Source of the DNA: Subsaximicrobium wynnwilliamsii
Lineage (GTDB): Bacteria; Bacteroidota; Bacteroidia; Flavobacteriales; Flavobacteriaceae
Reading direction: 5' to 3'
Length of the DNA: 64,000 bases
Assembly: GCF_007997225.1 (NCBI RefSeq)
Contig: NZ_VORM01000022.1
Span: forward strand, 1 to 64,000
The notes under the pieces are model-generated. The model saw only the letters and a list, made by a program, of their open reading frames with translations. It did no database searches and was not told where the DNA came from. Positions 29,314 through 58,569 of this stretch are shown piece by piece. How positions within the stretch are numbered: position 1 is the first letter of the stretch; each line of letters opens with the position of its first letter. A program made the translations under genes and the position numbers.

Positions 29314-32300
29314 TTAATTACAAATACCTTCCGTAACATAAACATTGACCTGTTTGACCTTATGATTTCTTTTGAAAATGTGTGAACTCATAACTTCATC
29401 TAAACTGAGGCTGTCATATGTTTTGGATGCTCCATCAACAAGCACAAGCTCAATACCTATTTTATTGCCGAGATGATAAATTATTGGGACTTGGCAGTAG
29501 GTAAAAGCCAACATGTGGGCATTCAATTTTATTTCATTAGTATTTTGAGCAACATCTATGTAGCTATAGACTCTAGACGATGTTAAAAACTCATTTGTTC
29601 TCAATAAGCAAGGATTGAAGTTTAGTTTGCCCTCATTAACAAAAACGCCCAGCTCCCCAATTCTTGATAAAATATCCTCTTTAACCTGACCAGTCATCCC
29701 TGGCTGTTGCGCTCCTTTACCAGCAGGCGTGTGCGAATAAGGATCTGTAGGAAAAGCACCATATAATTCAGGAGATTTATGGACACCGATACCTTCATTG
29801 ATTTCGTAGTAGTGCTCTAAAAGTGAGCCAACCACGGCATCGCTCTGTTTCTCTCTAATAGCCCGCAGACAAACCTCTTGAACAGCATATTGTAATTTGG
29901 AAACCATATGCCAATAAATAGAACCTAATCCTTCATAGCCATAGAAGGTTCCCGACCGTCCTGTAAATGCCTTATGGTTAAAGACTTTTTCAAAAGTGGT
30001 TAGAAGCAATTGCGTTTCTTGTTCGGCTAACTCCTTGAATTCGGTTGATTTCAATTTGGAGAGCGCCTTCTTCAGGCTGTCTGCATTATTAAAGTTTCCG
30101 TTAAAGTGAAAATCGCCATTCACATCCTTCTCGACAATTGAGGTGTTCCCCTTTTCGTCAAGTTTTTTTATGAGTTGAGATTGATCAACAGCCTCTTTAG
30201 GAATGGTATTCTTTACCATAAACCCAGGCAACCCCTTATTGGGATAAAGTAAATAACTGTATTGATCTTCCCTAAATAGTTTGCTGCTTTTCATCGCATC
30301 CAATACGTCCAAACAGGTTTTAGAATCTAAATACCCAGAACTCAAGGCCGCAACCTGACCTTCCAGCATTTCCTCTAAATGCGATATGGAAATGCTCTGC
30401 TCAGATTCTACCGTCATCAAATTATAGGCGTGATATAACTTATCTTCCCTTTGATTGGCATCGATGCTATGCTCTAAATACTTTAAGCTGATCATTACTA
30501 ACGCGCTAAGTTCGTCCAACTTGAGGGATTGCTTTTTGCCAGAAAATCCATCTTTATAGATTGCCATTCGGTAATCGCTTGCACTAGCGCCCAGTTGATC
30601 TAGAACCGCCTTACGCTGCGTATCATTAAAAGCAGCGTTTAGCAATGACTCGTGATTTTTGAACGCAGCGTACACCCCGTTGAAAAATATCAATAATTCT
30701 TCGGAAATGTGGACTTCCTGAACATCGGCCTTTGCTAAAATGCCTTCGAAATAGTGAAGAAAACGCCTTAAGTAATATAAGGTGACCATAGAGACACCGT
30801 TGCCTACTAATGCATTATTGGCATCGTTCCACTCTGGTCTTTGGGTATTTAACCAGATGCCAGCTTCAGGTATAAAGTTGGATAGTTTTGCTAAAACCGT
30901 AGCCAATAATTTCTCAATGAAATTAACCTTATAGATGGTATTTTCCTTAGATTTCAATAGTGCGCCATCTGCACCTAATTTCAATCGATCGGCTTCGATT
31001 TGCTCTTGAGCGTCCATATCAAAATCAATCGTATCTTTTGGATTTTTCAAAATCTCTTGATACGGTTTTATTCTGTAAGGCACATTGGCATAAACAAATA
31101 AGGACCTGTTGAAATAGGACTCCAACTTGCCTGGCTCATGACTTTCAATGAATTCGAGAAATTTTAGAAGATAAATAATTTGATGGTCACCCCAGTAACC
31201 AATGTAAGACCATGGATCGTCTGGCTCAATAATTTCCCAATCAAATCCTTCTTTTGTGACCCTGTAAGGGTTGTAACCATCAAAAGTACTTGCATTCAGA
31301 AATTTATGAATCATACTTTCAATAAACTCGGGGTAGGCATGCGCCAAAGCCTCCCAATTCTGAAAAATATCGCGCCAGTTGCCCTCGTAGTCCAAGATTT
31401 TTGAACCATCCTCCTCATTCGTTGTATTAATAGAGAATTTATTCCAAGGCCTACTAGGATCTCCATGTCTTCTGCTGAATTTCAAGGGCATGTATTCCAA
31501 ACACAAGCGTTTGAAATCCATGTCATCACTTGAGCCCGCCATCCCTTTCAATTTTGACAAATCGAACGTCTCGGGTAAATCGTTTAATACGTCGGAAACA
31601 TTTGAATAGACCTCTTGATTGGCTTTAGAAATATAATTTTTAAAGTCCCACTTTTCAATTTGGTAATTGTGATCAAAAATACCACCACGCATAATGTTGA
31701 AGAGCGTGTTTGCAAAATGTCTGGTATCGCGAAGCTTATCTGCTGTTAACTGCAAGGCATCTGCGCCTGCATTCAATTTATACAGATTCTCGGTACCTTT
31801 TTCTATGTCGGACCTAACATTAGCGGCTAGTTGTTTATTGCTTTTTATATCTTGAACCAGCGCTGCTATGGCCGAGTGGTTCTGATTAACGTTCCCAATA
31901 ATCATCCACTCTTTTTCAGCATTTGGTTGTAAGCTCATTTCGGTGTTGATGAAATAAGCTCCTTTTTCAGCCTTAATATCTGTTTCTTGGGTGATTGCCT
32001 TGCCTTGGCGAAAATCCGCTACTTGTTTTGAAGACAGCAAGTATTTTACATGGTCTAAACCTAGAGACCATGCAACATTGGCTTTGAGCGCTTCGCTGGG
32101 TTCTGCCTTATCAACAATAATCGCACTCAAGGCGAAAATACCCAATCCTGCTTCCTCAACCAGTTCACTTCTTTTATAAGCATCTACAAGATTACTCACG
32201 CGCATTTGTGTTTCTGAAGGAACCCCGAACGGCAGAATATTCTGTAAACCATCCAAAACGGAAACCTTCTGTTCTGATGCTGAAGTATTGATCAGTTTAG

Positions 32301-32760
32301 ACGTCTTCACAAACCCATAAGTATTGCTGGAGCTCCACTGGTAGCTGTAGGTGAGGTTTAAATCGTGATTTTCCTCTTCGAAGATGACCTTATTTCCGAA
32401 GGTGTTTTTATAGAGATTTCTAGTAATCTTATACAGCCCTTCATTACGTATGGAAAATGGCTCCCAAGTCTTTCTGCCTTCTTTGGTTTCAATAGCAAAT
32501 ATAGATTTACTGCCAGTGACCTCAACGGACTCTGTAATTTTATCATCTGTATAATAGGGAAATAAGGCATACTCGCTGTTCTTGCGACCAGCAGTAATAC
32601 CGCCATTACTAGACACAAACAACCAATGATTTGCATCACTTACAATACTCATAAAAAAGGGTCGCATTTCATCATGATTGGTTATCTTAAAATAAGATTG
32701 ACCATCAATTTTGACGTTTTTTAATTCAACTGGCTTTTTGTCTTGAATTTCTTGTTTCAT
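29314..32760 (-). CDS. Large GH94/GH149-like beta-1,3-glucan phosphorylase candidate
   Basis: The product has 1148 residues without signal peptide, so it is probably cytosolic. An N-terminal beta-rich region (SIVSDANHWLFVSSNGGITAG) is followed by an alpha/alpha-barrel-like body with aromatic, charged motifs: RRHGDPSRPWNKFSI (about 430-444), NWRDIFQNWEAL (461-472), WSYIGYWGDHQI (517-528). RPEWNDANNALVGNGVSMVT (641-660) resembles the GDWND catalytic segment of GH94 phosphorylases, with D646 as candidate acid. GH149 beta-1,3-glucan phosphorylases have this size and are reported from loci containing GH16, GH17 and GH30. The assignment comes from size, motif resemblance and context. If right, it converts imported laminari-oligosaccharides and phosphate to glucose 1-phosphate. 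Confidence 0.6.
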   Translation of the reverse strand: MKQEIQDKKPVELKNVKIDGQSYFKITNHDEMRPFFMSIVSDANHWLFVSSNGGITAGRKNSEYALFPYYTDDKITESVEVTGSKSIFAIETKEGRKTWEPFSIRNEGLYKITRNLYKNTFGNKVIFEEENHDLNLTYSYQWSSSNTYGFVKTSKLINTSASEQKVSVLDGLQNILPFGVPSETQMRVSNLVDAYKRSELVEEAGLGIFALSAIIVDKAEPSEALKANVAWSLGLDHVKYLLSSKQVADFRQGKAITQETDIKAEKGAYFINTEMSLQPNAEKEWMIIGNVNQNHSAIAALVQDIKSNKQLAANVRSDIEKGTENLYKLNAGADALQLTADKLRDTRHFANTLFNIMRGGIFDHNYQIEKWDFKNYISKANQEVYSNVSDVLNDLPETFDLSKLKGMAGSSDDMDFKRLCLEYMPLKFSRRHGDPSRPWNKFSINTTNEEDGSKILDYEGNWRDIFQNWEALAHAYPEFIESMIHKFLNASTFDGYNPYRVTKEGFDWEIIEPDDPWSYIGYWGDHQIIYLLKFLEFIESHEPGKLESYFNRSLFVYANVPYRIKPYQEILKNPKDTIDFDMDAQEQIEADRLKLGADGALLKSKENTIYKVNFIEKLLATVLAKLSNFIPEAGIWLNTQRPEWNDANNALVGNGVSMVTLYYLRRFLHYFEGILAKADVQEVHISEELLIFFNGVYAAFKNHESLLNAAFNDTQRKAVLDQLGASASDYRMAIYKDGFSGKKQSLKLDELSALVMISLKYLEHSIDANQREDKLYHAYNLMTVESEQSISISHLEEMLEGQVAALSSGYLDSKTCLDVLDAMKSSKLFREDQYSYLLYPNKGLPGFMVKNTIPKEAVDQSQLIKKLDEKGNTSIVEKDVNGDFHFNGNFNNADSLKKALSKLKSTEFKELAEQETQLLLTTFEKVFNHKAFTGRSGTFYGYEGLGSIYWHMVSKLQYAVQEVCLRAIREKQSDAVVGSLLEHYYEINEGIGVHKSPELYGAFPTDPYSHTPAGKGAQQPGMTGQVKEDILSRIGELGVFVNEGKLNFNPCLLRTNEFLTSSRVYSYIDVAQNTNEIKLNAHMLAFTYCQVPIIYHLGNKIGIELVLVDGASKTYDSLSLDEVMSSHIFKRNHKVKQVNVYVTEGICN

Positions 32761-32861: not shown

Positions 32862-35168
32862 TTAATCCAATCTCAAATCATCAATATAATACACACGCTC
32901 TTCTGTTGTGACGTCTCCGTCTGTCCCATCTGGATTGTCTGGTTTAATGACTAATTGATTATAAGTTGTAGGTGATCCCGATGGTGGTAGATTAATGAAA
33001 GTGAACTCAATCTCTACCCATTCATTCGCGCCTCCAGAAACCTGACGGAATTGTGGTGCAGGATTACCTGTTACCGGAGTTGTTTGCGGATCTAAGGCCA
33101 ATTCGAATCTATAAGTCACATCCGAATAACTCGAGTACACTTTTACTTTAAAGGTTTGTGTGGTGAAATCTATCGTACCTGCGGGAAAAGAGTTTTGGAT
33201 ACCTCCCCAGCGGTTTATCCCACTAGGCTTGGTAATTCGCAATACATAATCTGAAGTGTTGATGCCCGACGACGCAGGATTATCTACCAAACTTGTTAAA
33301 ACGGGATTGCTCTCAACACTTGAAAACGTACTGATAAAAGATTCACAATCCTCGAAATCAACAGGCAGTGAAGTTGCTGCAACGGCATCCCCATCACATC
33401 CACCGCCGCCAGTGCTGCCTCCTCCATCGCTAAATAGCGCTAAATCATCAATGTAGTAGATGGCTTCAGTAGAGGTTCCCAATGCAAAGAATAACACAAT
33501 TTTATCATACTTGTTAGAATCTCCAGCAGCGAAATTAAAGGTCAATTCTTCCCATTGCATTGCACTTCCTGCCGATGTGGTCACAGGTACTTCTTTAAAA
33601 ATCCCAGCATCATTTTGATCTTCCAATTTTAGCAAGACCGGTGTTTCTGAGGTTGACGACCATACTTTCAGTTTAAAGCCTGAATTTGTATTGAAATCTA
33701 ATTTTGCGTCCAAAGTAATCTGGTTATTAGCGAACTGAGCCGCACTAGTTCTATCGATTTGACCCACTTTACACGACGTGTTGACCGTGTTGTCAAAATC
33801 TGGATTATCAATCCAAGCAAATCCAGCACCATCTGAAGTTATACTTGCCGTTGGGTCGTTTAAGAATGTTAAATTAAAGTCTGCCGCATTTAGTGATTGA
33901 GAGACTTCAGGAGTACATGGGGTACCGAGATTGACAAATACCTGTTCAAAATCATCAACATAAAAAGTACCTACAGCATTACCAGCACCATCAACAAATA
34001 AAATCATATCATTATAACTTGCTGATGAGTTGAGCGTAAAAGTCAATTCTTCCCAGCCAGTGCCGCCGTGCATTTCTGTATCCTCAACGTCAACGTCTGT
34101 ACCATCCTCAAATTTTAATAACACAGGTAATGCTTGGTTTGAAAATAGTTTAAATCTCACACCTTTATCTGTAGCAAAATCAATTGGCGTATCTAAATTG
34201 AAAAACGCATTTTCAAATTGGTTCCCCACATTGGTAATTTGACCAACTTTAGTTAACTGATCGTTTATACCCGAAAGCTCTGGGTTATCAACTACTGCAA
34301 ATGAAACGTCACCAGTTATTTTGGTGCTGTAATCTATACTTTCACAATCAAAATCAAATGGCAGCGCTAACTCTGTAATTAAACAGGGTACGTCGTCAGA
34401 GTTCAATTGCTCAACATCATCCATATAAAAAGCCCCTGCGGTAGTTCCTGAACCATCAACAAACATGGTGAATTTTGAATAACTCACCGCCGAATCGAAG
34501 GTAAAGTAAATGTCTTCCCACCCTGAGCCGCCGTGGCTTGCCGTAGTTTCAACATCTACACCATTACCTGCCTCAAGTTTTACAAGAACGTTAATTGGTA
34601 TTTGTGACCAGAACTTCATTGTCACAGATTTATCTGTTGATAAATCTAAAGGCAAGCCGAGGTCAAAAAAGAGACCCTCGAACACTGCTCCGCTATTTGT
34701 AATTGCACCAACGTTTGATACCAGGTCATTTGCTCCCGATGCATCAGGGTTTTCAACAACTGCAAAGGATGTCCCTTCAAAAGTAGTTGCATCATAGGCA
34801 ACCAAGGGATCATCAAAAGTAATTGGAAGGGCAATATCTTCTGGAATTTGGATGGTTATTGTATCCTCAAATGTATCTGTGGCACCAGCAACGTTTTTTG
34901 CCGTGAGCACAATTGTATAAACACCAGAGGTATATATTTTTGTTGGATTATTTTCTGTGGATGCCGTTCCATCGCCAAAGTCCCAAGAATACGAATCTGC
35001 GTTGCTAGACGCATTTATAAAGGTAACTACCCCCGCTTCTTGGTTTATGGTATGCGTAAATAAAGCTTCAATCTTTGGCAAATTTTCATCATCATCGTCA
35101 CAGCCTGAAAAGCTGAATGCCAATGAGAGCATAAAGACTATTTTAATTCCCTTAATTATGTTTTTCAT
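32862..35168 (-). CDS. Multidomain surface glycan-binding lipoprotein (PKD plus repeated beta-sandwich domains)
   Basis: The product has 768 residues. The lipobox ends at C23 (FSFSGCDDDD) with an acidic +2 stretch typical of surface-exposed Bacteroidota lipoproteins. A PKD domain spans about 35-108 (SYSWDFGDGTASTENNPTKI). Four consecutive domains of 140-160 residues follow. Each opens like LPITFDDP or LPFDFDCE, has a GWEDIYFTF or QWEELTFNF strand and closes with FYMDDVEQ/YYIDDL. The same type occurs twice in the T9SS protein at 22129-23505. No catalytic residues are seen. It probably replaces SusE/SusF as a beta-glucan-binding protein. Confidence 0.82.
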   Translation of the reverse strand: MKNIIKGIKIVFMLSLAFSFSGCDDDDENLPKIEALFTHTINQEAGVVTFINASSNADSYSWDFGDGTASTENNPTKIYTSGVYTIVLTAKNVAGATDTFEDTITIQIPEDIALPITFDDPLVAYDATTFEGTSFAVVENPDASGANDLVSNVGAITNSGAVFEGLFFDLGLPLDLSTDKSVTMKFWSQIPINVLVKLEAGNGVDVETTASHGGSGWEDIYFTFDSAVSYSKFTMFVDGSGTTAGAFYMDDVEQLNSDDVPCLITELALPFDFDCESIDYSTKITGDVSFAVVDNPELSGINDQLTKVGQITNVGNQFENAFFNLDTPIDFATDKGVRFKLFSNQALPVLLKFEDGTDVDVEDTEMHGGTGWEELTFTLNSSASYNDMILFVDGAGNAVGTFYVDDFEQVFVNLGTPCTPEVSQSLNAADFNLTFLNDPTASITSDGAGFAWIDNPDFDNTVNTSCKVGQIDRTSAAQFANNQITLDAKLDFNTNSGFKLKVWSSTSETPVLLKLEDQNDAGIFKEVPVTTSAGSAMQWEELTFNFAAGDSNKYDKIVLFFALGTSTEAIYYIDDLALFSDGGGSTGGGGCDGDAVAATSLPVDFEDCESFISTFSSVESNPVLTSLVDNPASSGINTSDYVLRITKPSGINRWGGIQNSFPAGTIDFTTQTFKVKVYSSYSDVTYRFELALDPQTTPVTGNPAPQFRQVSGGANEWVEIEFTFINLPPSGSPTTYNQLVIKPDNPDGTDGDVTTEERVYYIDDLRLD

Positions 35169-35242: not shown

Positions 35243-36067
35243 TTATTTTTGGTATACGCGAACATAATCCACCAGCATTGTTTGTGGAAAATTGGTTTCA
35301 TCATTTGGATTGCCTACATAACTGCCACCTATAGCCAGGTTGAGAAGCATATAGAATGGACGGTCGTTAAAAACCCATTCGCCATCAACATCGGCTGGAG
35401 TTATTTGATTATAAAGCTTATTGTCAACATAATAGTTAATATAATTAGGACCCCATTCGATACCAAATACGTGAAAATCAGTATCAAACCTAGCGCCATC
35501 AAGTATAAACGATTTTGATACCGCATTACCCGCTGAATATCCTGGACCGTGAACACTACCCGTGATTATGGTTGGCTCTTGGCCACGGTTTTCCATGATA
35601 TCGATCTCACCAATTTGAGGCCAAACATCAACGCCATCATTATCGTCGCCCAACATCCAGAATGCCGGCCACATACCTCTGCCATAAGGCAAGCGCATGC
35701 GGGCTTCAAAGCGACCGTATTTTTGATCGAATTTACCCTTGGTTACCAAACGGGCCGAAGTGTAATTTGAACCCTGAAAATCCTCTTGCCTTGCAGTGAT
35801 TAAAAGGAAGCCGTTTTCTACTTTTACATTTTCGGTTCTATCTGTATAATACTGTAATTCATTATTACCCCATCTATCCAGACCTTGATCTGAGCCATCA
35901 CCAATATCAAAACCCCAAAGGTTTGGATCTGGTGCGCCATCAATATCAAAATTATCCTCGATGATCAACGTATCAAAGGTGGTCACTGTTTGGGTATCAT
36001 CTGAAGAACAATTGGACAAAAGACCTATGGAAATGATCGCAATGCATCCTGTAAAAATTGATTTCAT
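35243..36067 (-). CDS. GH16 family laminarinase-type lipoprotein
   Basis: The product has 274 residues from the ATG at 36067, which gives a clean signal peptide with lipobox at C20 (IGLLSNCSSDD). Upstream in-frame ATGs would add a charged extension. It is a single GH16 domain: LDRWGNNELQYYTDRTENV, RMRLPYGRGMWPAFWMLG, and the catalytic GEIDIMEN with E154, D156 and E159. The extra M in the ExDxxE loop fits the laminarinase/beta-1,3-glucanase group. It should cut beta-1,3-glucan at the cell surface or in the periplasm. It is 65 bp from the neighbouring binding protein. Confidence 0.93.
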   Translation of the reverse strand: MKSIFTGCIAIISIGLLSNCSSDDTQTVTTFDTLIIEDNFDIDGAPDPNLWGFDIGDGSDQGLDRWGNNELQYYTDRTENVKVENGFLLITARQEDFQGSNYTSARLVTKGKFDQKYGRFEARMRLPYGRGMWPAFWMLGDDNDGVDVWPQIGEIDIMENRGQEPTIITGSVHGPGYSAGNAVSKSFILDGARFDTDFHVFGIEWGPNYINYYVDNKLYNQITPADVDGEWVFNDRPFYMLLNLAIGGSYVGNPNDETNFPQTMLVDYVRVYQK

Positions 36068-36132
36068 TTTTGATTTATATAAATGATTATGTTTCATAGT
36101 TACTTTTATTTCAGACATATATCATGGTTTCT

Positions 36133-37539
36133 TTATTCTGTATAGAAGTAGATGTTATCCAAAATGAAATTAGGGCCACCGGTTATAATTATTGCTCCTA
36201 AATTATTTTTTTGATTCGCAATACCACCAGCTAGCGGTATCTCAAAAGACGTCCATTGACCAACACTTAAATTGGTCAAATCTGTTCTGTAATCTTTATC
36301 ATCACCATCTGGAAAACCTGTAAATTGATTGGTTTCTATCTCTTGATTGGCACCAATATCCCTAATTTGAATTCCTACCTCAGTTCCTGCTTCTTGAACG
36401 TAAACATCGATATGCATAAAAGTCAATGCAGATGCATCAACCGTATCATTGAAAATTATTCCCGTAAAATTATTGTTAGCATATGATAAAAAAGAATCGC
36501 CTGCACCACCTACTAAAGCTGTCTCTGTTGTAGAACCGCCAAATCCAGGTGCAAAATCAATTTCAGTAGCATTGGTATAAGCATCGCTAAATATAGATTT
36601 TACGTTTGCTTGCGGTAAAGTGGGAGCCGGAGCAGATTGGAGACCTCCTGTAGCATTAATTTGTATAGAACCTCTCGCTTCCACGCCATCAATAATAGCC
36701 GTTATTAATGCGGTTCCTTCTCCTATCACAGAAATAACACCTAATTCATCTACGATAGCAACTCCTGTATCTGAAGAACTAAAAGTGAAATATGACGGTG
36801 CTGTTGTAACCGTTTGATTGATTCCTGAAGCCAAATTATAAGTTTGTGTAAGACCGCTAATTATTATCGAAGAGTCCGTAAAGCTTTGTTGGGTTAAATC
36901 TTGTCCTGAAAATATTGCGGGATCTGACTGAGCAATCGTTCCTAAATTTTCAAACCTCACCTCATCAAACCATAAGGTGTATCCGCCTTCATCGCCATCA
37001 AAGGATGCACCCTCTGCCAGCCAAAACAAGCCAGCTTCACCAATAAGCTTAGACGCATCTGGGATAGGAATCACGTATTTTTTCCAATTAGTACTTATTT
37101 CTAGTCCGCTTAAGGTCGTTAGATATTTATTATTTATATCTCCGTCAATACCAAATCCTACATCATTCAACGTTGCAGCTTGTGATGCCTTAGCATAAAA
37201 TGTAAGTGCATCATAGCCCGTGAGGTTTCTTTTAACGGTTGTATTGAAGGTGGCACCCACAAAACCATTACCAAACGAAGGGACGTCAAATCGCATGGCA
37301 GCGTTTCCCTCAAAAACCTCATCGGTAACCACACTAAACGCTTCGGGATCTGCCCCTTCCCCTACAAAAGGAAAGTAGTCTAAGCCAGCAGAGAATGCGT
37401 CGGTAAATACGTCGCCATTAGCCGGGAATTCAGCAAAGACAGCCTCATCGCTTAGCTCCCTTTCACAACTGGTTATTGCAAAAAATAGCAATAATACTGC
37501 CCAATGATTTTTTGAGAACACGTTATTTATTTTAGTCAT
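36133..37539 (-). CDS. Glycan-binding lipoprotein with a BIG2-like domain
   Basis: The product has 468 residues. The lipobox ends at C25 (FAITSCEREL). A beta-sandwich domain (about 30-195) is followed by a bacterial Ig-like group 2 domain at about 205-295 (FTFSSSDTGVAIVDELGVIS). A C-terminal beta-sandwich then spans 305-468 (VKSIFSDAYTNATEIDF to FILDNIYFYTE). This last domain resembles the middle domain of the lipoprotein at 43085-45178 (ISMFSNAYEQDVNVSSW to FFIDNVYFYR). There is no catalytic motif. It is 10 bp after the barrel-fusion gene stop, so the two are co-expressed. The predicted role is surface binding of beta-glucan. Confidence 0.78.
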   Translation of the reverse strand: MTKINNVFSKNHWAVLLLFFAITSCERELSDEAVFAEFPANGDVFTDAFSAGLDYFPFVGEGADPEAFSVVTDEVFEGNAAMRFDVPSFGNGFVGATFNTTVKRNLTGYDALTFYAKASQAATLNDVGFGIDGDINNKYLTTLSGLEISTNWKKYVIPIPDASKLIGEAGLFWLAEGASFDGDEGGYTLWFDEVRFENLGTIAQSDPAIFSGQDLTQQSFTDSSIIISGLTQTYNLASGINQTVTTAPSYFTFSSSDTGVAIVDELGVISVIGEGTALITAIIDGVEARGSIQINATGGLQSAPAPTLPQANVKSIFSDAYTNATEIDFAPGFGGSTTETALVGGAGDSFLSYANNNFTGIIFNDTVDASALTFMHIDVYVQEAGTEVGIQIRDIGANQEIETNQFTGFPDGDDKDYRTDLTNLSVGQWTSFEIPLAGGIANQKNNLGAIIITGGPNFILDNIYFYTE

Positions 37540-37549: not shown

Positions 37550-40500
37550 TTATTTTCCAATATTGATATGCACATAGGTTCTAATTTCCCACTCATCGCC
37601 ATTTGGGAAGCCAACCGGACTTAATGGTGGAACGCCAAATTCTGGTGCCAGAGTTGGAGAGTATCGTGGCGAAAATTCATTCAATGAACGCCAAGTCCCT
37701 CTTAAACCAATCGTTGTACTGGGCAAAACAAACCAATCTGGCTTTCCTAAGGATGTGGAAAAATCAAACATAAGTTGTAGTGGGAAGGTTAAGTTGAAAT
37801 CACGATGATAATCAAAAGGTCCCCAATCATTTATTTTTACGTGTGTTTCCACTTTCATTTTCTTGTATATCGCTCTTACATCTCCACCAAAGCGCCTGAT
37901 CAATCGCTGACTATCACCATTTGCCTGCCCGTTTCCGTAGTAGAAATTACCTATAATTCCTAAATCTGGGGTTAGTTTAGAGACCATTCTAGAATGTATC
38001 TCCCATAAATCTTCAGCAGGAGCAGAATTTGCAAAAGCAAAAAATGTTCGATTGGCCAGAAAACCGATTGCCCCATCTTGTGTTGTTGGAAGGTGACGGA
38101 AAACAAAGCCTAAATTCATTGCGAACTCTGCGTCTTCAGCACGATCATTATCCCATTGGTACATCCAAGTCCCTGGCGTGGGATCGAAAGTAAAAAGAAT
38201 CTCACCTGCTGTTGTTTCTCTATTACCACCTCTTACAGCAAAGGGGTCATCAATCACATTTCTCAGTCTCCCCGGAGCATTGACCCCATTAGGCATTGGA
38301 TCAACAAGCGGAGCTTGCCACATAAAGTTTGGGGCAATTTGAAAATTGGAGAATGAATAGGTAAATCCCGTTAAGAAATTATTTAGGTTTCCGCTTCCAG
38401 AATCTTTCAATCTCCAACCTGTAAATGTTTGGGTAGCATCTGCACCTCCGTTCGCAACTAAGCCCATAATGGCACCCTGGGCGTACCAATTAAATTTTCC
38501 TCCCTCGTAAGTTATTTTTGCTTTGCCTCCCCAGTTATCATTACTTTCAACCTTATCAACGTACACAACGCCATCCTTGACGTTTTGAAAAGAACTTCCA
38601 TTTAATGGTTTACCACTCCAAATACCTCCTAGGGTTAGTCCAAATTTCCCAATCTCTCGCTCTACAGCAATTGTAGCTCTCTCTGTTGGATATGCTGGAA
38701 TTATACCACTTCGTACTTGATTTTGGTCTAAAATACGACGACCATTGGCATCAATTTGTAATTGAGTCTCAACATCTCTGTTATAAATCCCAGTAAGGGC
38801 ATAATTACCCAATTTTTTCTGATATTTAAATAACATGGTTGGATTGGCTCCCCACCATAATTGGGGGCCAAATGCTGCTTTCAATCCTTTTGCAGCTCCT
38901 TTTCCATCAATCTCCAAACCAAGGATTTCTCCACCATAAATATCTAAATTAGGACCATAGTTCGCTTCAGGATATAAGCCGAAAAAGTCGCCTTCATAGC
39001 CCCAATGGTAATGACCTGTTCTATAAAACCCTCTTAAATCGAAATCTTTGGCGTTCCATTCAAATTCCGCTTGGTAAACATTTATCTTATTGATATCTCC
39101 CAAGATGACATCGCCATCATCTGAATTAACTGTTAATGGTCTAGACCTATTCTCATAAAAAATTTCATCTATGGGATTTTGGGCTACATTACCAACAACG
39201 TTAAAATTGACCTCAGCTCTAACATTTGGCGCAGGATTTCCCTCCACACCAATGAAATAAGATTGCATGTTATCAAAGCCCAATTGATTTGGGAATACAT
39301 TACCGTCTGGTTCTGGATTCTCTGGGGTTGTGATAAGACTACCACCCGTACTAAACGTAGTGAATCGCGCTGTTAATTGACTAAGTCTAATTTTTTGATC
39401 ATTTCCCCCAAGTGCAGCCTTGTCACCTCTTGCCTTTAAAACGGCATCCATCAATTGGATATTATTGAAATAATTGGTAACGAAATCGCCGGTCATGTTT
39501 TCATCATAAGGGTTTAGCTTATGTGCTTCTTTCAATGCATAATAAGCCGCTCTCGGATACAATTCGTACAAACCACGTTCGTTGGTTGGCCCTTTGGCGC
39601 AGATACCAAACCATTCCTCATTCATATTATTCTGACCAGGAGCTAAATCTATATCATATCCGCCATTGGTCCATGACGCATTATTATCATGTACATCTGC
39701 ATTTTCCCTATCATCAAATCCATATTTCCACCAACCGTCACTAAATTGAAATGTAAAGCCCCCAATAGATATACCCGTTTTTCCTAGTCCAGCCGCATGT
39801 TGGTAGATCTCTTTCCAATTTTCAACCATGTAATAGGCTTGCGCTTTTTGATCTTCCCTGTTTTCTTTTGCATTAAAAGCATCTGCCCCAAACTCGGTAA
39901 ACAATAGCGGCATATCCAGTTTTTCTTTAACAACATCAAACATGTCTGTAAATGACGCACCTCTATAGGTATTGGTTCCGTAAATATCGACGTCTTCACA
40001 CTCTTCTGCCACGATGTCTATAAAAAGCACATCACCATTACAGATCGCCACGGGGTGTGAAGTATCAATAGATTTCATTGCTTTTGCCGCGTCATTCATT
40101 AATTTATACATGGGACGACCTCGTTTCTCACCGATGAAATTCTTTTCTTCCTCATCGTCGGGAAAGTCTTCAGTTTCTGCCCCCTGCCAAAAAAGACCAT
40201 AGTTATTTTCATTACCTAAGAGGTAAAGTAAAAGCCCAGGTGTATCTTTATAGTCGTTAACCAAATTGGTCACTTCATCCATCAAATGCTCTTGAGTTGC
40301 CTTATCATCATAAATAGTGACGGGCGTCCAAACGCCATCTAAAGTGAGACCATACCTACCGAAGGAATGATTTAACATGGTATAGATGCCGTAATTCTTG
40401 TAGATGTATTCAATCCATCTTGCTGGAACACCTGTATATTGTCTAATCACGTTTACGCCCATGTTTTTAAGCAAAGACATCTCAGAATCCAGCCCAGCTT

Positions 40501-40726
40501 TTATAATTTCATCAGATTTTTTCCAGAAATTAGCGTCAACCGTATTGGTTCCAATTGGAATGTAATCCCAGTTCATACCATTAATTATAAATTCCTCTCC
40601 ATTGACAACGAGTATCATCCCATCTTGGTCATTGCTAACACAAACCATATCGGCTTGGGCGAAAACTGTTGCCGAAAACAAGAAGATCATGAGTATGAGG
40701 CCTTGCTTTTTAATTGTCTTATTCAT
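37550..40726 (-). CDS. Clan GH-A glycosidase fused to a predicted outer-membrane beta-barrel
   Basis: The product has 1058 residues. A signal peptide (1-24, ending SATVFAQA) precedes a TIM-barrel glycosidase at about 35-410: EEFIINGMNWDYIPIG, NMGVNVIRQYTGVPARW, acid/base E173 in LLGNENN, nucleophile E278 in LLFTEFGAD. It resembles the catalytic part of GH2/GH5-type enzymes but lacks GH2 sandwich domains. Residues about 445-1058 switch to alternating amphipathic, aromatic-rich strands separated by turns (for example KFNWYAQGAIMGLV, FQIAPNFMWQAPLVDPMP, RRFGGDVRAIYKKMKVET), the pattern of an outer-membrane porin-like barrel. It is first in the downstream operon. Glucan specificity is inferred from context. 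The barrel assignment is by eye. Confidence 0.75.
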   Translation of the reverse strand: MNKTIKKQGLILMIFLFSATVFAQADMVCVSNDQDGMILVVNGEEFIINGMNWDYIPIGTNTVDANFWKKSDEIIKAGLDSEMSLLKNMGVNVIRQYTGVPARWIEYIYKNYGIYTMLNHSFGRYGLTLDGVWTPVTIYDDKATQEHLMDEVTNLVNDYKDTPGLLLYLLGNENNYGLFWQGAETEDFPDDEEEKNFIGEKRGRPMYKLMNDAAKAMKSIDTSHPVAICNGDVLFIDIVAEECEDVDIYGTNTYRGASFTDMFDVVKEKLDMPLLFTEFGADAFNAKENREDQKAQAYYMVENWKEIYQHAAGLGKTGISIGGFTFQFSDGWWKYGFDDRENADVHDNNASWTNGGYDIDLAPGQNNMNEEWFGICAKGPTNERGLYELYPRAAYYALKEAHKLNPYDENMTGDFVTNYFNNIQLMDAVLKARGDKAALGGNDQKIRLSQLTARFTTFSTGGSLITTPENPEPDGNVFPNQLGFDNMQSYFIGVEGNPAPNVRAEVNFNVVGNVAQNPIDEIFYENRSRPLTVNSDDGDVILGDINKINVYQAEFEWNAKDFDLRGFYRTGHYHWGYEGDFFGLYPEANYGPNLDIYGGEILGLEIDGKGAAKGLKAAFGPQLWWGANPTMLFKYQKKLGNYALTGIYNRDVETQLQIDANGRRILDQNQVRSGIIPAYPTERATIAVEREIGKFGLTLGGIWSGKPLNGSSFQNVKDGVVYVDKVESNDNWGGKAKITYEGGKFNWYAQGAIMGLVANGGADATQTFTGWRLKDSGSGNLNNFLTGFTYSFSNFQIAPNFMWQAPLVDPMPNGVNAPGRLRNVIDDPFAVRGGNRETTAGEILFTFDPTPGTWMYQWDNDRAEDAEFAMNLGFVFRHLPTTQDGAIGFLANRTFFAFANSAPAEDLWEIHSRMVSKLTPDLGIIGNFYYGNGQANGDSQRLIRRFGGDVRAIYKKMKVETHVKINDWGPFDYHRDFNLTFPLQLMFDFSTSLGKPDWFVLPSTTIGLRGTWRSLNEFSPRYSPTLAPEFGVPPLSPVGFPNGDEWEIRTYVHINIGK

Positions 40727-41364: not shown

Positions 41365-43077
41365 TTATTGGTAAACCCTTACATAATCCACTTCCATTTG
41401 ATCTTCAGTAAAAGCAGGATCAATCACACCACCAAGCGATCCACCCATGGCTACGTTCATGATCAAAAAGAAATCGCTCTTAAACGGAAGATCTGGCGTA
41501 TTTGGTATGCTACGGAAGACTTCGTCGTCAATAAGGAATGTTATGGTTTCTGCCGTCCAATCCAAGGAATAGTTATGGAAGGTTGTAGTTGCTGTAGGCA
41601 AAGCTTTAGTTCCCGTATCGCCGGCACCAGGCGATACTGCGGGATGGTGTATGGTCGCCAAAACGGTGTTCTTATCCTGACCTGTTTGCTCTATAATATC
41701 GATCTCACCGCATCCTGGCCATGGATTGACTTCAATATCTGCGCCGAGGCTCCACAATGCTGGCCAAGTCCCTTGAGCGGCAGGTAACTTTGCACGAATC
41801 TCTACACGACCATAAGTGAACTCATATAAGTTTTGAGTTTTCAATCTTGCTGAAGTATATCCATCACCATTTGCCTTGGCAATTATTCTTAAAATACCGT
41901 TTTCTATAGTCACATTTTCAGCATCGTTGGTATAAACCTGTGCTTCACCATTCCCCCAGCCGTTACTACCTGTCCCTATATCATAGGTCCAATTGGCTGG
42001 ATCTGGCGCACCGTCTGTGTCAAATTCATCGCTCCATACCAGATCGTTGAAGGTAGATGTGAAATCTGAAGTTGCTGGTGTGGTGGTAAACATTTGATAC
42101 CAAGCCAGATCAGGATTGACATTGTCAAAAAACCTTACATAGAGATAGTTGCTATCAATTTGCAAAATTTCATAAGATGATACCCCTGTATAGTAGCCCA
42201 TAAAACCATCATTAGTAAAATTCATGACAGTTCCTCTTGGAACAGGAAATTCAGGATCAGCAACTTGGGACCAATCTGTTGATGAAGGCACAAGTGTTAC
42301 CGCACTTTCTGCCATGGTATCAAATTCAAAGCATGCATCTGCAAATTCGTCTAATTGCTGTCCAACCACAGCTCCATGTGCCCAGTTGAAAAATGTAGAT
42401 CCATTATTATTCTGATTAAAAGTAAGATTACCTGTAGCATCTAATTCAAAGGTCAAAGATAAATCACAGAAGCAGTCACTGTCTGCAGCAGCACATTTTC
42501 CGAAAGCGTCTGTAGAATCGTATTGCGGAAACCAATGTCCATTTAGGGTTCCATCATCTCCAATATCCTGAGCTAAAGTTGGCCCCACACCTAAATGACC
42601 ATTTTCATCCAGTTTAGGATACCATGTTTTACTGCTTACTTCACCACCACTCAATAGTTGCTTAGCCTCAAGATCATCAAAGGAACTAAAGACCTCTACG
42701 TCCAGGGTTGCCGATGAAGACAAGCCGCCAGCACCCAACGCGTTCACTACAACGGTGTAGGTATTCAAACCTACAACACTATAGCGATGAACCGTTTCTC
42801 CTGAAGGCACAACGCCATCTGTACCGTCCCCATATGCAAAACTATAGCCAAGCGCTTGATCGGCGGTGGCTTTAAATATTACTTGTCCGCTGCCATCACC
42901 GTTGGGATTGTCGGCATCAACGCCTACAATTTCCGTGGTAATGACAATATTGGATGGCGCCACAATTGCACCAAATGTGCTATCATCGTCTTGGCAGCCA
43001 GCGCAAAGCAATAATACTGCGAGGATGCCTACGTAATTTCTAAAATTTCCCATAATAGTTCTATTAATCTTTTTCAT
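41365..43077 (-). CDS. Multidomain GH16 lipoprotein (PKD, lipocalin-like insert, GH16)
   Basis: The product has 570 residues from the ATG at 43077. An upstream in-frame start would overlap the previous gene. The lipobox ends at C28 (VLLLCAGCQDDD). A PKD-like domain lies at about 40-128. A domain at about 145-330 shares the opening pattern (TWYPKLDENGHLGVGPTLAQ) with the repeated domains of the neighbouring binding protein. A GH16 domain fills about 340-570 with catalytic GEIDIIEQTG (E458, D460, E463) and GTWPALWSLGAD. It is a probable endo-beta-1,3-glucanase at the cell surface. It is last in the upstream susCD operon. Confidence 0.9.
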   Translation of the reverse strand: MKKINRTIMGNFRNYVGILAVLLLCAGCQDDDSTFGAIVAPSNIVITTEIVGVDADNPNGDGSGQVIFKATADQALGYSFAYGDGTDGVVPSGETVHRYSVVGLNTYTVVVNALGAGGLSSSATLDVEVFSSFDDLEAKQLLSGGEVSSKTWYPKLDENGHLGVGPTLAQDIGDDGTLNGHWFPQYDSTDAFGKCAAADSDCFCDLSLTFELDATGNLTFNQNNNGSTFFNWAHGAVVGQQLDEFADACFEFDTMAESAVTLVPSSTDWSQVADPEFPVPRGTVMNFTNDGFMGYYTGVSSYEILQIDSNYLYVRFFDNVNPDLAWYQMFTTTPATSDFTSTFNDLVWSDEFDTDGAPDPANWTYDIGTGSNGWGNGEAQVYTNDAENVTIENGILRIIAKANGDGYTSARLKTQNLYEFTYGRVEIRAKLPAAQGTWPALWSLGADIEVNPWPGCGEIDIIEQTGQDKNTVLATIHHPAVSPGAGDTGTKALPTATTTFHNYSLDWTAETITFLIDDEVFRSIPNTPDLPFKSDFFLIMNVAMGGSLGGVIDPAFTEDQMEVDYVRVYQ

Positions 43078-43084
43078 ATTTTTT

Positions 43085-45178
43085 TTAAATTCTAACCAGC
43101 TTATATTGCCAATAGACGCCACCCCCAATATCAACATTTAAATTTATGGTGTTGGCATCCACAAAACTCACATTATAAGTAATGGAACTTGGTACTGCCA
43201 CATTTGGCAATTCTCCTTGGTTATTGGCTTTAGCCAGCCCAATATAGGCACCAGTTCCATTAAGGGTAATTGTTCCTGCGGAGCCGTTATAGGTATAAGT
43301 CGCAGGATTGGAGCCATCATGAGGTGCTACAGGAGTGCCACAACTATCACCACCACCTTGCCAAGCTTCTATCCAACTTTCAGCCCCAAGATCGTTGGTG
43401 AAAGTACCATCGGCACCGAAGATATAATTGTCATCATAATAACAAGCTCTTGAATCGACACAAACCGCGTCGCAACTAAAAAAACTGACATCGCCAATCG
43501 CCGGACCGATGCCTAAAGCTCCGGCTTCTGGTGCCATTTGCCACGTACCGGCAAGCGGATTGGTTGCACCCTCGCGAATCAATCTATACTGCCAATAAAC
43601 GCCACCGCCAATATCAACATTAACGTTAATCGTATTGGCATCGATAAAAGAGACATTGTAAGTAATCGAACTTGGTACCGCCACATTAGGCAACTCCCCT
43701 TGATTATTTGCTTTCGCTAAACCAATATATGCTCCAACTCCATTAACCGTTACGGTACCAGCAGCTTCGTCATAAGTATAGCTCGCAGGATTGGAGCCAT
43801 CGTGAGGCGCCACAGGAGTTCCACAACTATCACCACCACCTTGCCAACCTTCTATCCAGCTTTCAGCTCCAAGATCGTTAGTGAAAGTACCATCGGCACC
43901 GAAGATATAATTGTCATCATAATAACAAGCTCTTGAATCGACACAAACCGCGTCGCAACTAAAAAAACTGACATCGCCAATAGAAGGGCCAACACCCAGA
44001 GCTCCAGCTTCAGGTGCCATTTTCCAAGTGCCTTCCAAACCTTCTCCTGCGGCAGTTGCGGCACGATAGAAATATACATTATCGATAAAGAAATCGAAAG
44101 TACCCGTTGGCAAACCTGAAAATATCATTTGTTGAATGGAATTGATAGAGGTCATTCCAGCGTCGGTAAAATCACTCATCGGAATTTCTATAGACACCCA
44201 TTCATTCTGCGGAAGATCGGTAAAAACAATTTCAGCTTCCGTAGCTTCCCCACCTAAATCAACTAATTTTACACGGAAGGTGGTGGCATTTACGCTCCAA
44301 AAGTCCATGTGGAAACTATCCATTTGAGAGGCATCCACTGCGGCATCTCCGTAAAATTCGACACCCACAAAATCAGCATCTGCATAAAATTTGGTATCGT
44401 TGCCTGCAATCTGTAAATCGGTCAAGGTACTCGTGCTCCAATCGGAACGCCAAGAACTCACGTTCACGTCCTGCTCGTAGGCATTGCTAAACATGGAAAT
44501 CACATCTGAATCCTGTCGTGATGGTGGCGTTGGTGCTCCTGTTAATGGTTGTAAAATCTCTGTTACCAAAAAGTCCTCTGTATACTGTACCGTTTCAATC
44601 GCTGCACTAAAGGCAGTGACCGTAATGGTGTAGGTTCCAGCTTCGTCGTAAATAAAACTTGCGGTATCGCCATCATTGATCATGACGGGCTCACTTCCGG
44701 CTTGACCGAAATCCACCTCATAGCTCAAGGCGAAATCAGCAACTGCAGTCACATTTACTTTTCTGGATACCGCAGCGTCGTTGGTAATTGTGACCACTAA
44801 GTTTTCGGGTGCATTGAAAGACACCATAATTTCTTGGGTTACAGAGGTAGACCTTCCGTTGAGTCCAAAAGCTTGAATGCTGGCTTGATAGGTTCCTTCG
44901 GCATAGGTATGCTCTACAAAAGCGCCTGGTTGTATATTGGAAGCGGCCTCAGAATTATCGCCATAATCAATGGTAAAGGTTGTTACGCCTTCCGCCAAGG
45001 GTGTGATTTTTACCAGGCCCGAGTTGTCTTGCGTCACGGTTACCAAAGCTGAAACATTTGAGGGTGCATTGATCCCGTTTACAAAATCGGTATTGTCATC
45101 GTCTTTCTCACAGCCAAAAAATGCGGTCATGACCAGACAAAGACCTAAAGTGTATTTAAAAATTTTCATAGTTTTCAT
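43085..45178 (-). CDS. Surface glycan-binding lipoprotein with a near-identical duplicated C-terminal domain
   Basis: The product has 697 residues. The lipobox ends at C23 (MTAFFGCEKDDD). Two PKD-like domains (about 35-115 and 117-205: FTIDYGDNSEAAS, YEVDFGQAGSEP) are followed by a beta-sandwich (about 215-385) similar to the C-terminal domain of the lipoprotein at 36133-37539. Two copies of a domain of about 155 residues then follow. Each starts W[KQ]MAPEAGALG and contains SCDAVCVDSRACYYDDNYIF. The copies are offset by 161 codons. It takes the SusE position directly after SusD (6 bp) and is presumably the glucan-binding component of the uptake complex. A GH16 follows after 7 bp. Confidence 0.85.
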   Translation of the reverse strand: MKTMKIFKYTLGLCLVMTAFFGCEKDDDNTDFVNGINAPSNVSALVTVTQDNSGLVKITPLAEGVTTFTIDYGDNSEAASNIQPGAFVEHTYAEGTYQASIQAFGLNGRSTSVTQEIMVSFNAPENLVVTITNDAAVSRKVNVTAVADFALSYEVDFGQAGSEPVMINDGDTASFIYDEAGTYTITVTAFSAAIETVQYTEDFLVTEILQPLTGAPTPPSRQDSDVISMFSNAYEQDVNVSSWRSDWSTSTLTDLQIAGNDTKFYADADFVGVEFYGDAAVDASQMDSFHMDFWSVNATTFRVKLVDLGGEATEAEIVFTDLPQNEWVSIEIPMSDFTDAGMTSINSIQQMIFSGLPTGTFDFFIDNVYFYRAATAAGEGLEGTWKMAPEAGALGVGPSIGDVSFFSCDAVCVDSRACYYDDNYIFGADGTFTNDLGAESWIEGWQGGGDSCGTPVAPHDGSNPASYTYDEAAGTVTVNGVGAYIGLAKANNQGELPNVAVPSSITYNVSFIDANTINVNVDIGGGVYWQYRLIREGATNPLAGTWQMAPEAGALGIGPAIGDVSFFSCDAVCVDSRACYYDDNYIFGADGTFTNDLGAESWIEAWQGGGDSCGTPVAPHDGSNPATYTYNGSAGTITLNGTGAYIGLAKANNQGELPNVAVPSSITYNVSFVDANTINLNVDIGGGVYWQYKLVRI

Positions 45179-45184: not shown

Positions 45185-46645
45185 TTAATATCCTTGATTT
45201 TGTTGCCAATTCCCGTTTGAAAATTGGATTTCCTCAAAGGGAATCGGGAATAATTCATGTCTATTTGCTGAAAAACCATCGATTTCTGAACCGCGATTGG
45301 TTCTTACCAAATCGAAGAAGCGGTGGCCTTCACCAACCAATTCTGTGCGTCGTTCTGCATAGATGGCATCAATCAAGGCATTGCCAGAAGCGGTAACATC
45401 TGAAAGATTCGCTCTTGTGCGTACTCTATTTAAATAAAGTCTCGCTTTATCTTCATTTAGGCCTCCTCGTGCGTAAGCTTCCGCAGCCATCAATAGGACG
45501 TCGGCAAAACGAATGGCTCTATAATTATTGGGATTGGTTAGATTTAAATCCCCAGCAGCATCGGCACTTCTTTTTCTAGGCAGGTATTTTCTGTTGAAAT
45601 AACCCGTATGTTCATATCCTGTTCCAAAGGTAGCCCCTGTTTCGGCTGCCCAGGCTTCGATATCCAAGATGGCCACGTCCTTTCTAATGTCGCCTGCTTC
45701 AAATGCATCAACTACTTCCTGTGTTGGAACATTAAAACTGAAACCAGAGGTAAAGATTGGACCTGAATAATTACGAACACCACTAAAACCAACAGCAACA
45801 TTACCCTCGCTACATTGAAGACATAAAAAACTTGCACCTTCAACATCTGTATATTGCACTTCAAAAACCGATTCAATACCATTCTCACCTTGACTTTCAA
45901 ATAGGGTATTGTAGTCACTTACCAAATCATAGGGCCCATTGTTAATAAGCGTTTCAAAAACATTGGCTGCTTCGGTAAATTTGTCTTGGTATAAGAACGC
46001 TTTTCCTAAAAGTGCCTGCGCCGAGCCTTTGGTTGCTCTGCCAATTTGGGGAGCTGTATAGGATAGGGTATTTGACGCAAAGGTTAAATCGGCTTCTATC
46101 AAGGCGTACACGTCTTCAACCGGACTTCTTGGAATTGAAGTTTCATCACCCAATGTGAATCGTGTTTCCTTTAGCGGCACTGGGCCAAACCATTTTACCA
46201 ATTCAAAATAGTAGTAAGCTCTTAAAAATCGAGCTTCAGCAATAATGATTGCTTTGCCTTCAAAGTCGGTTTTATCTTGAAATTCCAAAATATAATTGGC
46301 ACGATTGACACCAGCATACATGAAATCCCAAATTCTCTTGATTTCGGAATTTACCGGAGTGTGGATCATATCATCCACTTGCTGCCAACCAATGACATCG
46401 GTCGCACTTTCTCCACCAGCGAGGGTATTGTCTGACGCGATCTCACCTAAAATCGTGTTGAGATAGGTGGATTGCAACAAGTCATAAGCACCAATGAGTG
46501 CATTGTAATAATCACTTTCTGAGTTGAAATAGTTTTCGGAATCGATGGAATATACTGGAGTGCGTTCCACAAAGTCATCCGTACATCCTGAAAGTCCGAA
46601 TATTGTGAACACAACTATAAAGGAGTATGTAAGTTTATTTTTCAT
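45185..46645 (-). CDS. susD: SusD/RagB-family outer-membrane lipoprotein
   Basis: The product has 486 residues from MKNKLTYSF. A start four codons upstream (46657) would share its A with the SusC stop and is an alternative. The lipobox ends in FGLSGCTDDF. SusD features are present: NYFNSESDYYNALIGAYDLL, the TPR-like helices with EARFLRAYYYFELVKWFGPV, PLKETR, RLYLNRVRTRA, and the C-terminal IYAERRTELVGEGHRFFDLV with RTNRGSE. It forms the lid of the SusC transporter and binds glycan at the surface. It is the direct partner of the interrupted SusC. Confidence 0.95.
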   Translation of the reverse strand: MKNKLTYSFIVVFTIFGLSGCTDDFVERTPVYSIDSENYFNSESDYYNALIGAYDLLQSTYLNTILGEIASDNTLAGGESATDVIGWQQVDDMIHTPVNSEIKRIWDFMYAGVNRANYILEFQDKTDFEGKAIIIAEARFLRAYYYFELVKWFGPVPLKETRFTLGDETSIPRSPVEDVYALIEADLTFASNTLSYTAPQIGRATKGSAQALLGKAFLYQDKFTEAANVFETLINNGPYDLVSDYNTLFESQGENGIESVFEVQYTDVEGASFLCLQCSEGNVAVGFSGVRNYSGPIFTSGFSFNVPTQEVVDAFEAGDIRKDVAILDIEAWAAETGATFGTGYEHTGYFNRKYLPRKRSADAAGDLNLTNPNNYRAIRFADVLLMAAEAYARGGLNEDKARLYLNRVRTRANLSDVTASGNALIDAIYAERRTELVGEGHRFFDLVRTNRGSEIDGFSANRHELFPIPFEEIQFSNGNWQQNQGY

Positions 46646-46656
46646 CTTTTGTATCA

Positions 46657-49600: not shown

Positions 49601-49701
49601 CCCGAATTTTGATCGGTAACCACACCTGTTATGGTTAGGTCCTGACCCCAAGCCAGGCTAGCACCTAAGAAAAATAAGATCGTGAAGAATTTCGTTATCA
49701 T
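46657..49701 (-). pseudogene. susC: SusC/RagA-type TonB-dependent transporter interrupted by an in-frame TGA
   Basis: The full frame has 1014 codons plus stop. The signal peptide (ITKFFTILFFLGASLAWGQ) is followed by a carboxypeptidase-regulatory-like domain (TITGVVTDQNSGQPVPGVNV), the plug with TonB-box region (SLDEVVVIGYGTQKKRDLTG) and the beta-barrel. TGA at 46987-46989 splits the barrel after 904 residues (NRLNYVLD). The same frame continues directly with WTGPGTSNTVPRVTNAATSN and runs 109 codons to the natural end (YLVGLNLNF). SusC proteins normally read VLDRWTGPG here, so one CGA-to-TGA change explains the stop. Without the last strands the barrel should not assemble. It may be a real null, an assembly error or a polymorphism. 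Confidence 0.93.
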
Positions 49702-56546: not shown

Positions 56547-56577
56547 TTTGGCACGATTAAAATTCAGGTTCTATAAA

Positions 56578-56590
56578 ACACAATTTGTGT
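56578..56590. promoter_or_regulatory. Perfect 13-bp palindrome upstream of GH97
   Basis: ACACAA-T-TTGTGT lies 32-44 bp upstream of the GH97 start codon. The size and position suit an operator or a transcript-start hairpin. No regulator can be assigned. Confidence 0.3.
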
Positions 56591-58565: not shown

Positions 58566-58569
58566 ATTT

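Follow-up and report, generated by a model that had tools for sequence, protein, structure and literature searches.

A glycosidase joined to a predicted plug-free outer-membrane barrel in laminarin-type loci of Bacteroidota

We analyzed a gene for a two-domain protein in a 64,000-nucleotide stretch of Subsaximicrobium wynnwilliamsii DNA (contig NZ_VORM01000022.1, positions 1 to 64,000; hereafter the window), where it lies in a laminarin-type glycan locus (Table 1). The initial annotation had read it as a glycosidase with the catalytic glutamates of glycoside hydrolase (GH) clan GH-A, preceded by a signal peptide and continued into a C-terminal porin-like barrel. Each of these parts was supported by the analyses below. 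The open reading frame begins with ATG, and its N-terminus, MNKTIKKQGLILMIFLFSATVFAQ, is a predicted signal peptide in which a lipobox was absent both by eye and by pattern scan. AlphaFold2 modeled the whole protein as a (beta/alpha)8 domain followed by a barrel, with a mean predicted local distance difference test score (pLDDT) of 67.8 and a predicted template modeling score (pTM) of 0.54. The source genome holds a single match to the protein. At least 580 relatives were confirmed in a contig collection, and the best 80, which at 70-82% identity represent the near end of the family, were kept. All 80 of these loci carry the fused form, and this recurrence excludes chance or misassembly as the source of the fusion.

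The two glutamates of the enzyme domain, E173 in the GNE motif (residues 171-173) and E278 in the TEFG motif (residues 277-280), are invariant in 81 aligned sequences (the window protein and the best 80 relatives) and also in a more diverse set of 26 enzyme domains, fused as well as stand-alone. The acid/base E173 (codon 40208-40210) and the nucleophile E278 (codon 39893-39895) align with E137 and E220 of BuGH158, whose roles are assigned in the relevant passages of Dejean et al. (2020; PMC7157763). The closest solved fold to the whole model was the GH158 structure 9p26 (Z 23.9, root-mean-square deviation [rmsd] 3.0, 245 aligned residues); BuGH158 (6pal_A) matched with Z 22.3, rmsd 3.5, and 242 aligned residues, and the next rows after GH158 were beta-galactosidases (Z 20.8). 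A profile of the 26 enzyme domains reached BuGH158 (6pal) at a whole-sequence E of 5.7e-8 (8.8e-4 for the best stretch), the catalytic NE and E falling in aligned positions, and GH158(Pro) (9oro) at E 1.1e-5. Single-sequence searches of the PDB found 9oro weakly (E 0.15 and 0.033), together with antibody chains as chance matches. The sole Pfam match of the whole protein was PF02836 (GH2_C) at residues 78-289, a partial match (model positions 37-220 of 302) of 24.1 bits against a cut-off of 21; the same model matched 24 of the 26 enzyme domains at E<=0.01. An ordinary GH2 enzyme was nevertheless ruled out: the sandwich domains that stand ahead of the TIM barrel in GH2 are absent, the enzyme starting at about residue 24, and Pfam found no further GH2 domain in the fusion protein at E<=0.1. 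The fold and catalytic residues are thus well supported by model and alignment. We place the enzyme near rather than within GH158, because identity over the aligned core is just 19-20% and the Ig-like domain of BuGH158 is unmatched.

A fold search with the whole model listed enzyme matches only, and the C-terminal part was therefore modeled and searched by itself. The barrel-only AlphaFold2 model (pLDDT 70.7, pTM 0.71) forms a closed, amphipathic barrel whose turns are short and whose loops are long, and contains 24 strands of at least nine residues. All 50 structural-search rows shown for it are outer-membrane barrels by title, one of them (8xcj_A) a complex of LamB with a phage fibre, and a run of beta-sandwich domains in this region, which the initial annotation had named as its refutation, was rejected on this ground. 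The top single Z was that of AlgE (15.2), a partial match over model residues 16-483, while the ushers PapC (Z 14.3, rmsd 6.1, 373 aligned, model 1-629) and FimD (Z 13.7, rmsd 4.0, 366 aligned, model 11-629) matched near end to end; ushers have 24 strands. Structural alignments to sugar porins and AlgE showed 6-11% identity. Alternation within the modeled strands, scored on a hydropathy scale adjusted for W, Y, and G, was 2.85, compared with 1.45 +/- 0.22 for shuffled sequences, and exceeded all 1000 shuffles. No Pfam family matched residues 430-1058, and when 25 barrel homologs were scanned, Pfam gave nothing better than a domain of unknown function (DUF) at E 0.017. The plug, the TonB-receptor barrel, and the carboxypeptidase-regulatory domain were not found in the fusion (PF07715, PF00593, PF13715, and TIGR04056 all without match), whereas the window's own SusC matches all four. 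For lack of a plug, a TonB-dependent transporter was rejected.

In the barrel model, the loops that join odd to even strands have a mean length of 23.8 residues and the turns from even to odd strands one of 4.8, nine of the eleven turns having six residues or fewer. The usual rule for outer-membrane proteins is that short turns face the periplasm. The initial annotation had left the face occupied by the enzyme to the strand number; since that number is even and the short turns lie on the N-terminal side, both barrel termini and the enzyme are predicted to be periplasmic, with the enzyme beneath its own pore. The long loops taken together are as conserved as the strands (mean identity 0.73 and 0.74, respectively), and three aromatic loops are near-invariant, namely 571-599 (0.94), 624-629 (0.99), and 966-982 (0.97), other loops ranging down to 0.55. 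Read on the model, such conservation would fit a path specific for sugar. The single long turn on the periplasmic side, 848-867 (DPTPGTW...WDND), is conserved too, and we would guess that it contacts the enzyme.

We further assessed the spread of the architecture in 395 sampled genomes of the phylum, a sample that may overlap in species with the contig collection. The full protein found matches in 49 genomes and the barrel profile in 35. A complete barrel is present in 33 of the 395, always in a fused frame of at least 1028 residues (in G204 split over two contigs); in the remaining two barrel-profile genomes the gene is broken (G235) or reduced to a remnant of 67 residues (G119). A barrel without the enzyme was not found in the 395 genomes with profile A3, for which at most three candidates were scored per genome, so that distant ones may escape. 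Fusion records also occur in Persicobacter and in Bacteroides finegoldii, where the protein is annotated as 'glycoside hydrolase family 2 TIM barrel-domain containing protein'. In the B. finegoldii record (L131:9937-11574), the gene immediately ahead of the fusion encodes DUF6377, and BglX is encoded past the end of the cluster; SusC and SusD are unannotated across the 30 kb shown. The fusion architecture is therefore widespread in Bacteroidota. The initial annotation had called it unusual, which holds for its description in the literature searched, where we found none, and not for its occurrence.

The enzyme also exists as a stand-alone protein, scattered on the tree. In a quick tree of 63 enzyme domains, from which L118 and L120 (a contig end and a broken gene) were excluded, the nine stand-alone enzymes need six changes, at least five of them on starred branches. 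In the stand-alone locus L119, a decayed barrel start persists past the stop codon, so that the barrel has been lost in at least this locus. A lipobox was detected by script in three of seven located stand-alones (L112, L115, and L116), compared with one of 82 located fusions (L072); by eye, six of the nine stand-alones carry it, L117 and L178 with the same pattern and L114 with a less typical one. A looser pattern found 6 among 155 fusion frames, doubles included, and a separate count gave 1 of 81. The frame-calling scripts started at the first ATG, GTG, or TTG, and some N-termini are consequently overlong. Judged from these sequences, the enzyme would often remain membrane-bound after loss of the barrel. 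More distant stand-alone GH-A enzymes of 22-25% identity lie inside GH149/GH17 loci (L121:7145-8203 and L124:7550-8545) in genomes in which the barrel profile found nothing, and are possible functional replacements.

A lipoprotein, SGBP468, which went unmentioned in the initial annotation, accompanies the barrel. Among the 113 fusion loci with a gene downstream, 112 have SGBP468 in the next position, the exception being in G144. The lipobox counts by script given above, and the counts out of 120 and 107 fusion loci below with the stand-alone counts set beside them, exclude L081-L110 (the window copy and short doubles) and loci short of flank. By a strict count, requiring at least 1.5 kb downstream and SGBP468 as the best label, it lies directly downstream in 118/120 fusion loci and 0/10 stand-alone loci; the two exceptions are L030, where it is the next gene but beyond the distance rule, and L192 (the G144 locus), where the partner is 9.6 kb away. 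The commonest gene downstream of stand-alone enzymes is GH149. Genome-wide, at an author-set threshold of E <= 1e-20, SGBP468 is present in 34 of the 395 genomes: all 33 barrel genomes and one of the 362 others (G126). At this threshold it is absent from the enzyme-only genomes G304, G119, G368, G336, G104, G297, G123, G242, and G332, a list outside which G449 (L178) falls, and from G235 with its broken fusion. Barrel and partner covaried in 4.7 of five independent pairs, and in none did they change oppositely. This comparison used a looser rule, under which the partner may lie on either side and score above 60 bits with any of five SGBP468 queries. That rule gives 119/120 fusion loci, seemingly by counting a PKD697-like neighbor in L192, and finds an SGBP468-like gene, otherwise labeled PKD768-like, 2.2 kb from the stand-alone L111. 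SGBP468 thus belongs with the barrel and not with the enzyme, because the lipoprotein goes missing with the barrel while the enzyme stays. It has weak Ig-like domain matches, gave no match in a PDB search, and is not SusD by Pfam.

The fusion gene is separated from the preceding gene by 638 bp, and the gaps to the two genes after it are 10 bp and 14 bp, for which reason it probably heads its own operon (Table 1). The Reg_prop regulator lies upstream of the laminarin-type locus. Farther upstream, GH97, GH43, sulfatase, and esterase-like genes (54456-61133) perhaps form a separate glycan locus. In L119 (8617-10968), MFS and GH17 form one 783-residue frame that resembles the MFS-GH17 protein of Formosa, instead of the two adjacent genes of the window.

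Table 1. Features of the fusion gene and of the surrounding locus in the window
Feature	Coordinates	Strand	Evidence
Fusion gene, 1058 amino acids: signal peptide, GH-A enzyme, linker, outer-membrane barrel	37550..40726	-	Open reading frame, homologue alignment, AlphaFold2
Signal peptide, residues 1-23, without lipobox	40658..40726	-	Read from sequence; lipobox pattern scan
Clan GH-A (beta/alpha)8 enzyme, residues 24-410	39497..40657	-	Model, fold match, alignment
Linker, residues 411-445, with a pair of short helices predicted before strand 1	39392..39496	-	AlphaFold2 model
Predicted 24-strand outer-membrane barrel, residues 446-1058	37553..39391	-	Barrel-only model, structural search
SGBP468 lipoprotein, putative glycan-binding; starts 10 bp after fusion gene	36133..37539	-	Neighbour survey
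GH16 lipoprotein, third in the conserved cassette; follows SGBP468 by 14 bp	35243..36118	-	
Second GH16 lipoprotein, upstream of fusion	41365..43137	-	
PKD-domain lipoprotein, probable glycan-binding protein	43085..45178	-	
SusD-like lipoprotein	45185..46657	-	
SusC-like TonB-dependent transporter, interrupted by in-frame TGA	46987..49701	-	
Regulator: Reg_prop; Y_Y_Y and GerE below cut-offs	49938..52751	-	
PKD-domain lipoprotein	32862..35168	-	
GH149 beta-1,3-glucan phosphorylase	29314..32760	-	NF058639, 1802.7 bits
GH17	27958..29256	-	
GH30	26380..27885	-	
MFS sugar transporter	24833..26341	-	
Second GH17	23901..24809	-	

Of the 107 fusion loci with enough flank, 33 have SusC or SusD no more than 8.5 kb away, and the other 74 have neither within that distance. 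A mutual exclusion of barrel and SusCD was rejected as too strong, since those 33 loci and the window itself carry SusC or SusD; an association of stand-alone enzymes with SusCD was equally unsupported (2/6 with enough flank). Genome-wide, 38 of 41 genomes have a SusC above the TIGR04056 cut-off; those without one are G066, G255, and G242, the last a stand-alone genome. With PF07980, no SusD was found in 6 of 32 genomes, and in nine genomes searched with PF07980, PF14322, and PF12771 it was still absent in G051, G066, G255, and G242; PF12741, a further SusD model, was not searched. G066 and G255 are 99-100% complete and carry intact fusion, SGBP468, GH16, and MFS genes with no SusCD pair by the models used; in G051 a single SusC is borderline and SusD is absent. 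A compact cluster of fusion, long SGBP468-like lipoprotein, ROK regulator, GH16, and MFS genes (L126:7972-17468) lies in a genome without SusD by the three Pfam models and is perhaps a minimal complete system; gene order is similar in L195 and L198 (Pfam was run on L126 only). In the window, the SusC frame (46659-49701, minus strand) contains a single in-frame TGA at 46987-46989 (codon 905), past which about 109 residues continue to SusD. The TGA may be a nonsense mutation, a sequencing error, or a case of recoding; if it is real, the SusC of this locus is short of its terminal strands, alongside an intact fusion.

With the fusion, both predicted folds, the catalytic residues, the topology, the locus, the near-obligate pairing with SGBP468, and the occurrence in genomes where no SusC/SusD pair was recognised all in hand from computation, we consider it reasonably likely that the fusion is an enzyme-coupled, plug-free outer-membrane pore for the uptake of beta-1,3-gluco-oligosaccharides. 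Under this model, GH16 enzymes and glycan-binding lipoproteins, SGBP468 included, would cut and hold laminarin-type glucan outside the cell, and the oligosaccharides would pass in through the 24-strand barrel, with the aromatic loops as the probable sugar path. The GH-A domain, tethered beneath the pore by the linker of about 35 residues, would cleave each chain at the periplasmic exit. Cleavage, coupled in this way to diffusion, would prevent diffusion back out and make import one-way. Since a TonB plug is absent, transport would be driven by chain removal and the later steps, namely GH17, GH30, MFS import, and GH149 phosphorolysis. We infer the substrate, the conductance of the pore, and the direction of transport in this scheme, as well as that SGBP468 sits at the surface and touches the barrel, for which it may serve as a receptor or lid.

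Several points weigh against this model. The position of the enzyme under the pore follows from the predicted topology rather than direct observation, the confidence of the models is middling (pLDDT 68-71), and the count of 24 strands excludes six shorter ones, treated as parts of loops; FecA, a 22-strand barrel, also matches (Z 13.2, model 15-629). Identity to GH158 is low, GH2 beta-galactosidases also match the 26-domain enzyme profile (E 3.5e-4), and GH158 of B. uniformis is described in the published passages as acting at the cell surface. The placement of the stand-alones L117, L178, and L115, all on long branches, is uncertain, and the independent-pairs sign test, with five pairs only, gave a median p of 0.0625, short of significance. 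An acidic export-like motif after the lipid cysteine, found in lipobox proteins of the GH16b (20/20), PKD697 (22/22), and SusD (23/29) families, occurs in just 17 of 119 lipobox-bearing SGBP468 proteins, and the surface position of SGBP468 is unsure because of this rarity. Moreover, fusion genomes without SusCD retain other TonB-type receptors, and with SusC or SusD near the fusion in 33/107 loci, this window included, the pore is not always the sole route.

As an alternative, the barrel could serve as an anchor only, holding the enzyme at the outer membrane like the lipid tail of the stand-alones, with the conserved loops closing the lumen. The frequent lipobox of the stand-alones suggests that anchoring alone is worth keeping, and conserved loops could indeed plug a lumen; however, a 24-strand barrel of 613 residues is a costly anchor, and the near-obligate pairing with SGBP468 is unnecessary for one. 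Aromatic and polar residues line the sugar path of sugar porins, and by this analogy the most conserved loops, which are aromatic and polar, would fit such a path. We regard the anchor as an unlikely explanation. Quite improbable, in our judgment, is an autotransporter-like topology, in which the N-terminal enzyme would cross the membrane by way of the barrel or alongside it, in type V style, to end up on the outside. The order of N-terminal passenger and C-terminal barrel is present here, and the surface action ascribed to BuGH158 would agree with it, but the barrel has 24 predicted strands rather than 12 or 16, lacks any POTRA or autotransporter match in Pfam, and has its short turns on the N-terminal side. 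The acidic export-like motif argues weakly against this topology too, being carried by all lipobox-bearing GH16b and PKD697 lipoproteins and by only one of four stand-alone enzymes. Export or trimming of self-made beta-1,3-glucan, as by AlgE or PgaA in exopolysaccharide systems, is very improbable: AlgE, the alginate exporter, has the top single Z, over a partial match, and six of the 26 enzyme domains weakly match GH72 glucanosyltransferases in Pfam (best E 2.9e-5), but the loci hold GH149 phosphorylase, GH17, GH30, sugar importers, and a regulator of the type found in polysaccharide utilization loci (PULs), and Pfam found no glycosyltransferase among the 20 window proteins scanned, unlabeled genes of other loci being unannotated.

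A broader proposition, possible rather than probable, takes the enzyme-coupled pore as a SusCD-independent system of glycan uptake. One polypeptide would combine the outer-membrane channel with the first periplasmic enzyme, a dedicated lipoprotein would be its receptor or lid, and cleavage at the exit would make passive import one-way; such a system for beta-1,3-glucan would occur across Bacteroidota, in marine flavobacteria, one gut Bacteroides, and further lineages, and many loci at present classed as SusCD-type, or as clusters of carbohydrate-active enzymes (CAZymes) without a transporter, would contain it. If the fusion is a working enzyme-pore, it represents a second, plug-free uptake route and could explain how CAZyme clusters without susCD operate, such as the laminarin PUL of an NS4 metagenome-assembled genome lacking susCD in the passages of Sidhu et al. 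(2023). Many Bacteroidota carry the fusion in clusters for algal beta-1,3-glucan, which suggests that sugar entry and cutting occur at one point. The fusion allows a direct test of whether joining enzyme and pore makes import one-way, so that the SusCD-independent route is testable, and it defines for study a barrel family without a Pfam model and its lipoprotein partner.

Published locus listings, in the portions available, place a GH2 or GH0 with no barrel at this position. A paper on Muricauda lutaonensis (2026; PMC13188888) gives a 'GH2 beta-glycosidase' there in conserved Muricauda loci, its available passages leaving an outer-membrane barrel unmentioned, and the relevant section of Kappelmann et al. 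(2018; PMC6298971) does not mention the fusion. We infer that the published GH2 or GH0 is the fusion gene or its stand-alone form. No account of a glycosidase-barrel fusion was found in titles and passages, subscription papers and preprints lying outside the search. The fusion thus combines known kinds, a GH-A enzyme, an outer-membrane barrel, and a transporter-enzyme fusion, in a way undescribed in the literature searched.

Among known systems, LamB, ScrY, chitoporin, and AlgE are outer-membrane barrels that match the fusion barrel by structure, but they have 16-18 strands and no fused enzyme. PlpD joins a lipase to a 16-strand Omp85 barrel with POTRA, whereas the fusion has 24 predicted strands, no POTRA match, and a glycosidase. 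PlpD-type patatin-barrel fusions, as outlined in PMC11116518, share with it the joining of a soluble enzyme to an outer-membrane barrel. A laminarin enzyme joined to a membrane transporter is also found in the Formosa MFS-GH17 fusion FbGH17B, for which a coupling of cleavage and uptake is proposed in the relevant passages of Unfried et al. (2018; PMC6246565). FbGH17B belongs to the inner membrane and carries MFS helices and a C-terminal GH17 enzyme, as far as those passages describe it, while the present fusion has an outer-membrane beta-barrel and an N-terminal, GH158-like enzyme. The GH158 endo-beta-1,3-glucanases (BuGH158, 6pal; GH158(Pro), 9oro) share the clan GH-A fold, the aligned NE after beta4 and E after beta7, and the laminarin context; at the identity given above they differ in that the Ig-like domain of BuGH158 is unmatched and a membrane barrel is found instead. 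Finally, the SusC/SusD (pedal-bin) pairs also comprise an outer-membrane barrel and an adjacent lipoprotein gene in a glycan locus; the fusion, in contrast, lacks the TonB plug, the carboxypeptidase-regulatory domain, and the TIGR04056 match, its partner is not SusD by Pfam, and it carries its own enzyme.

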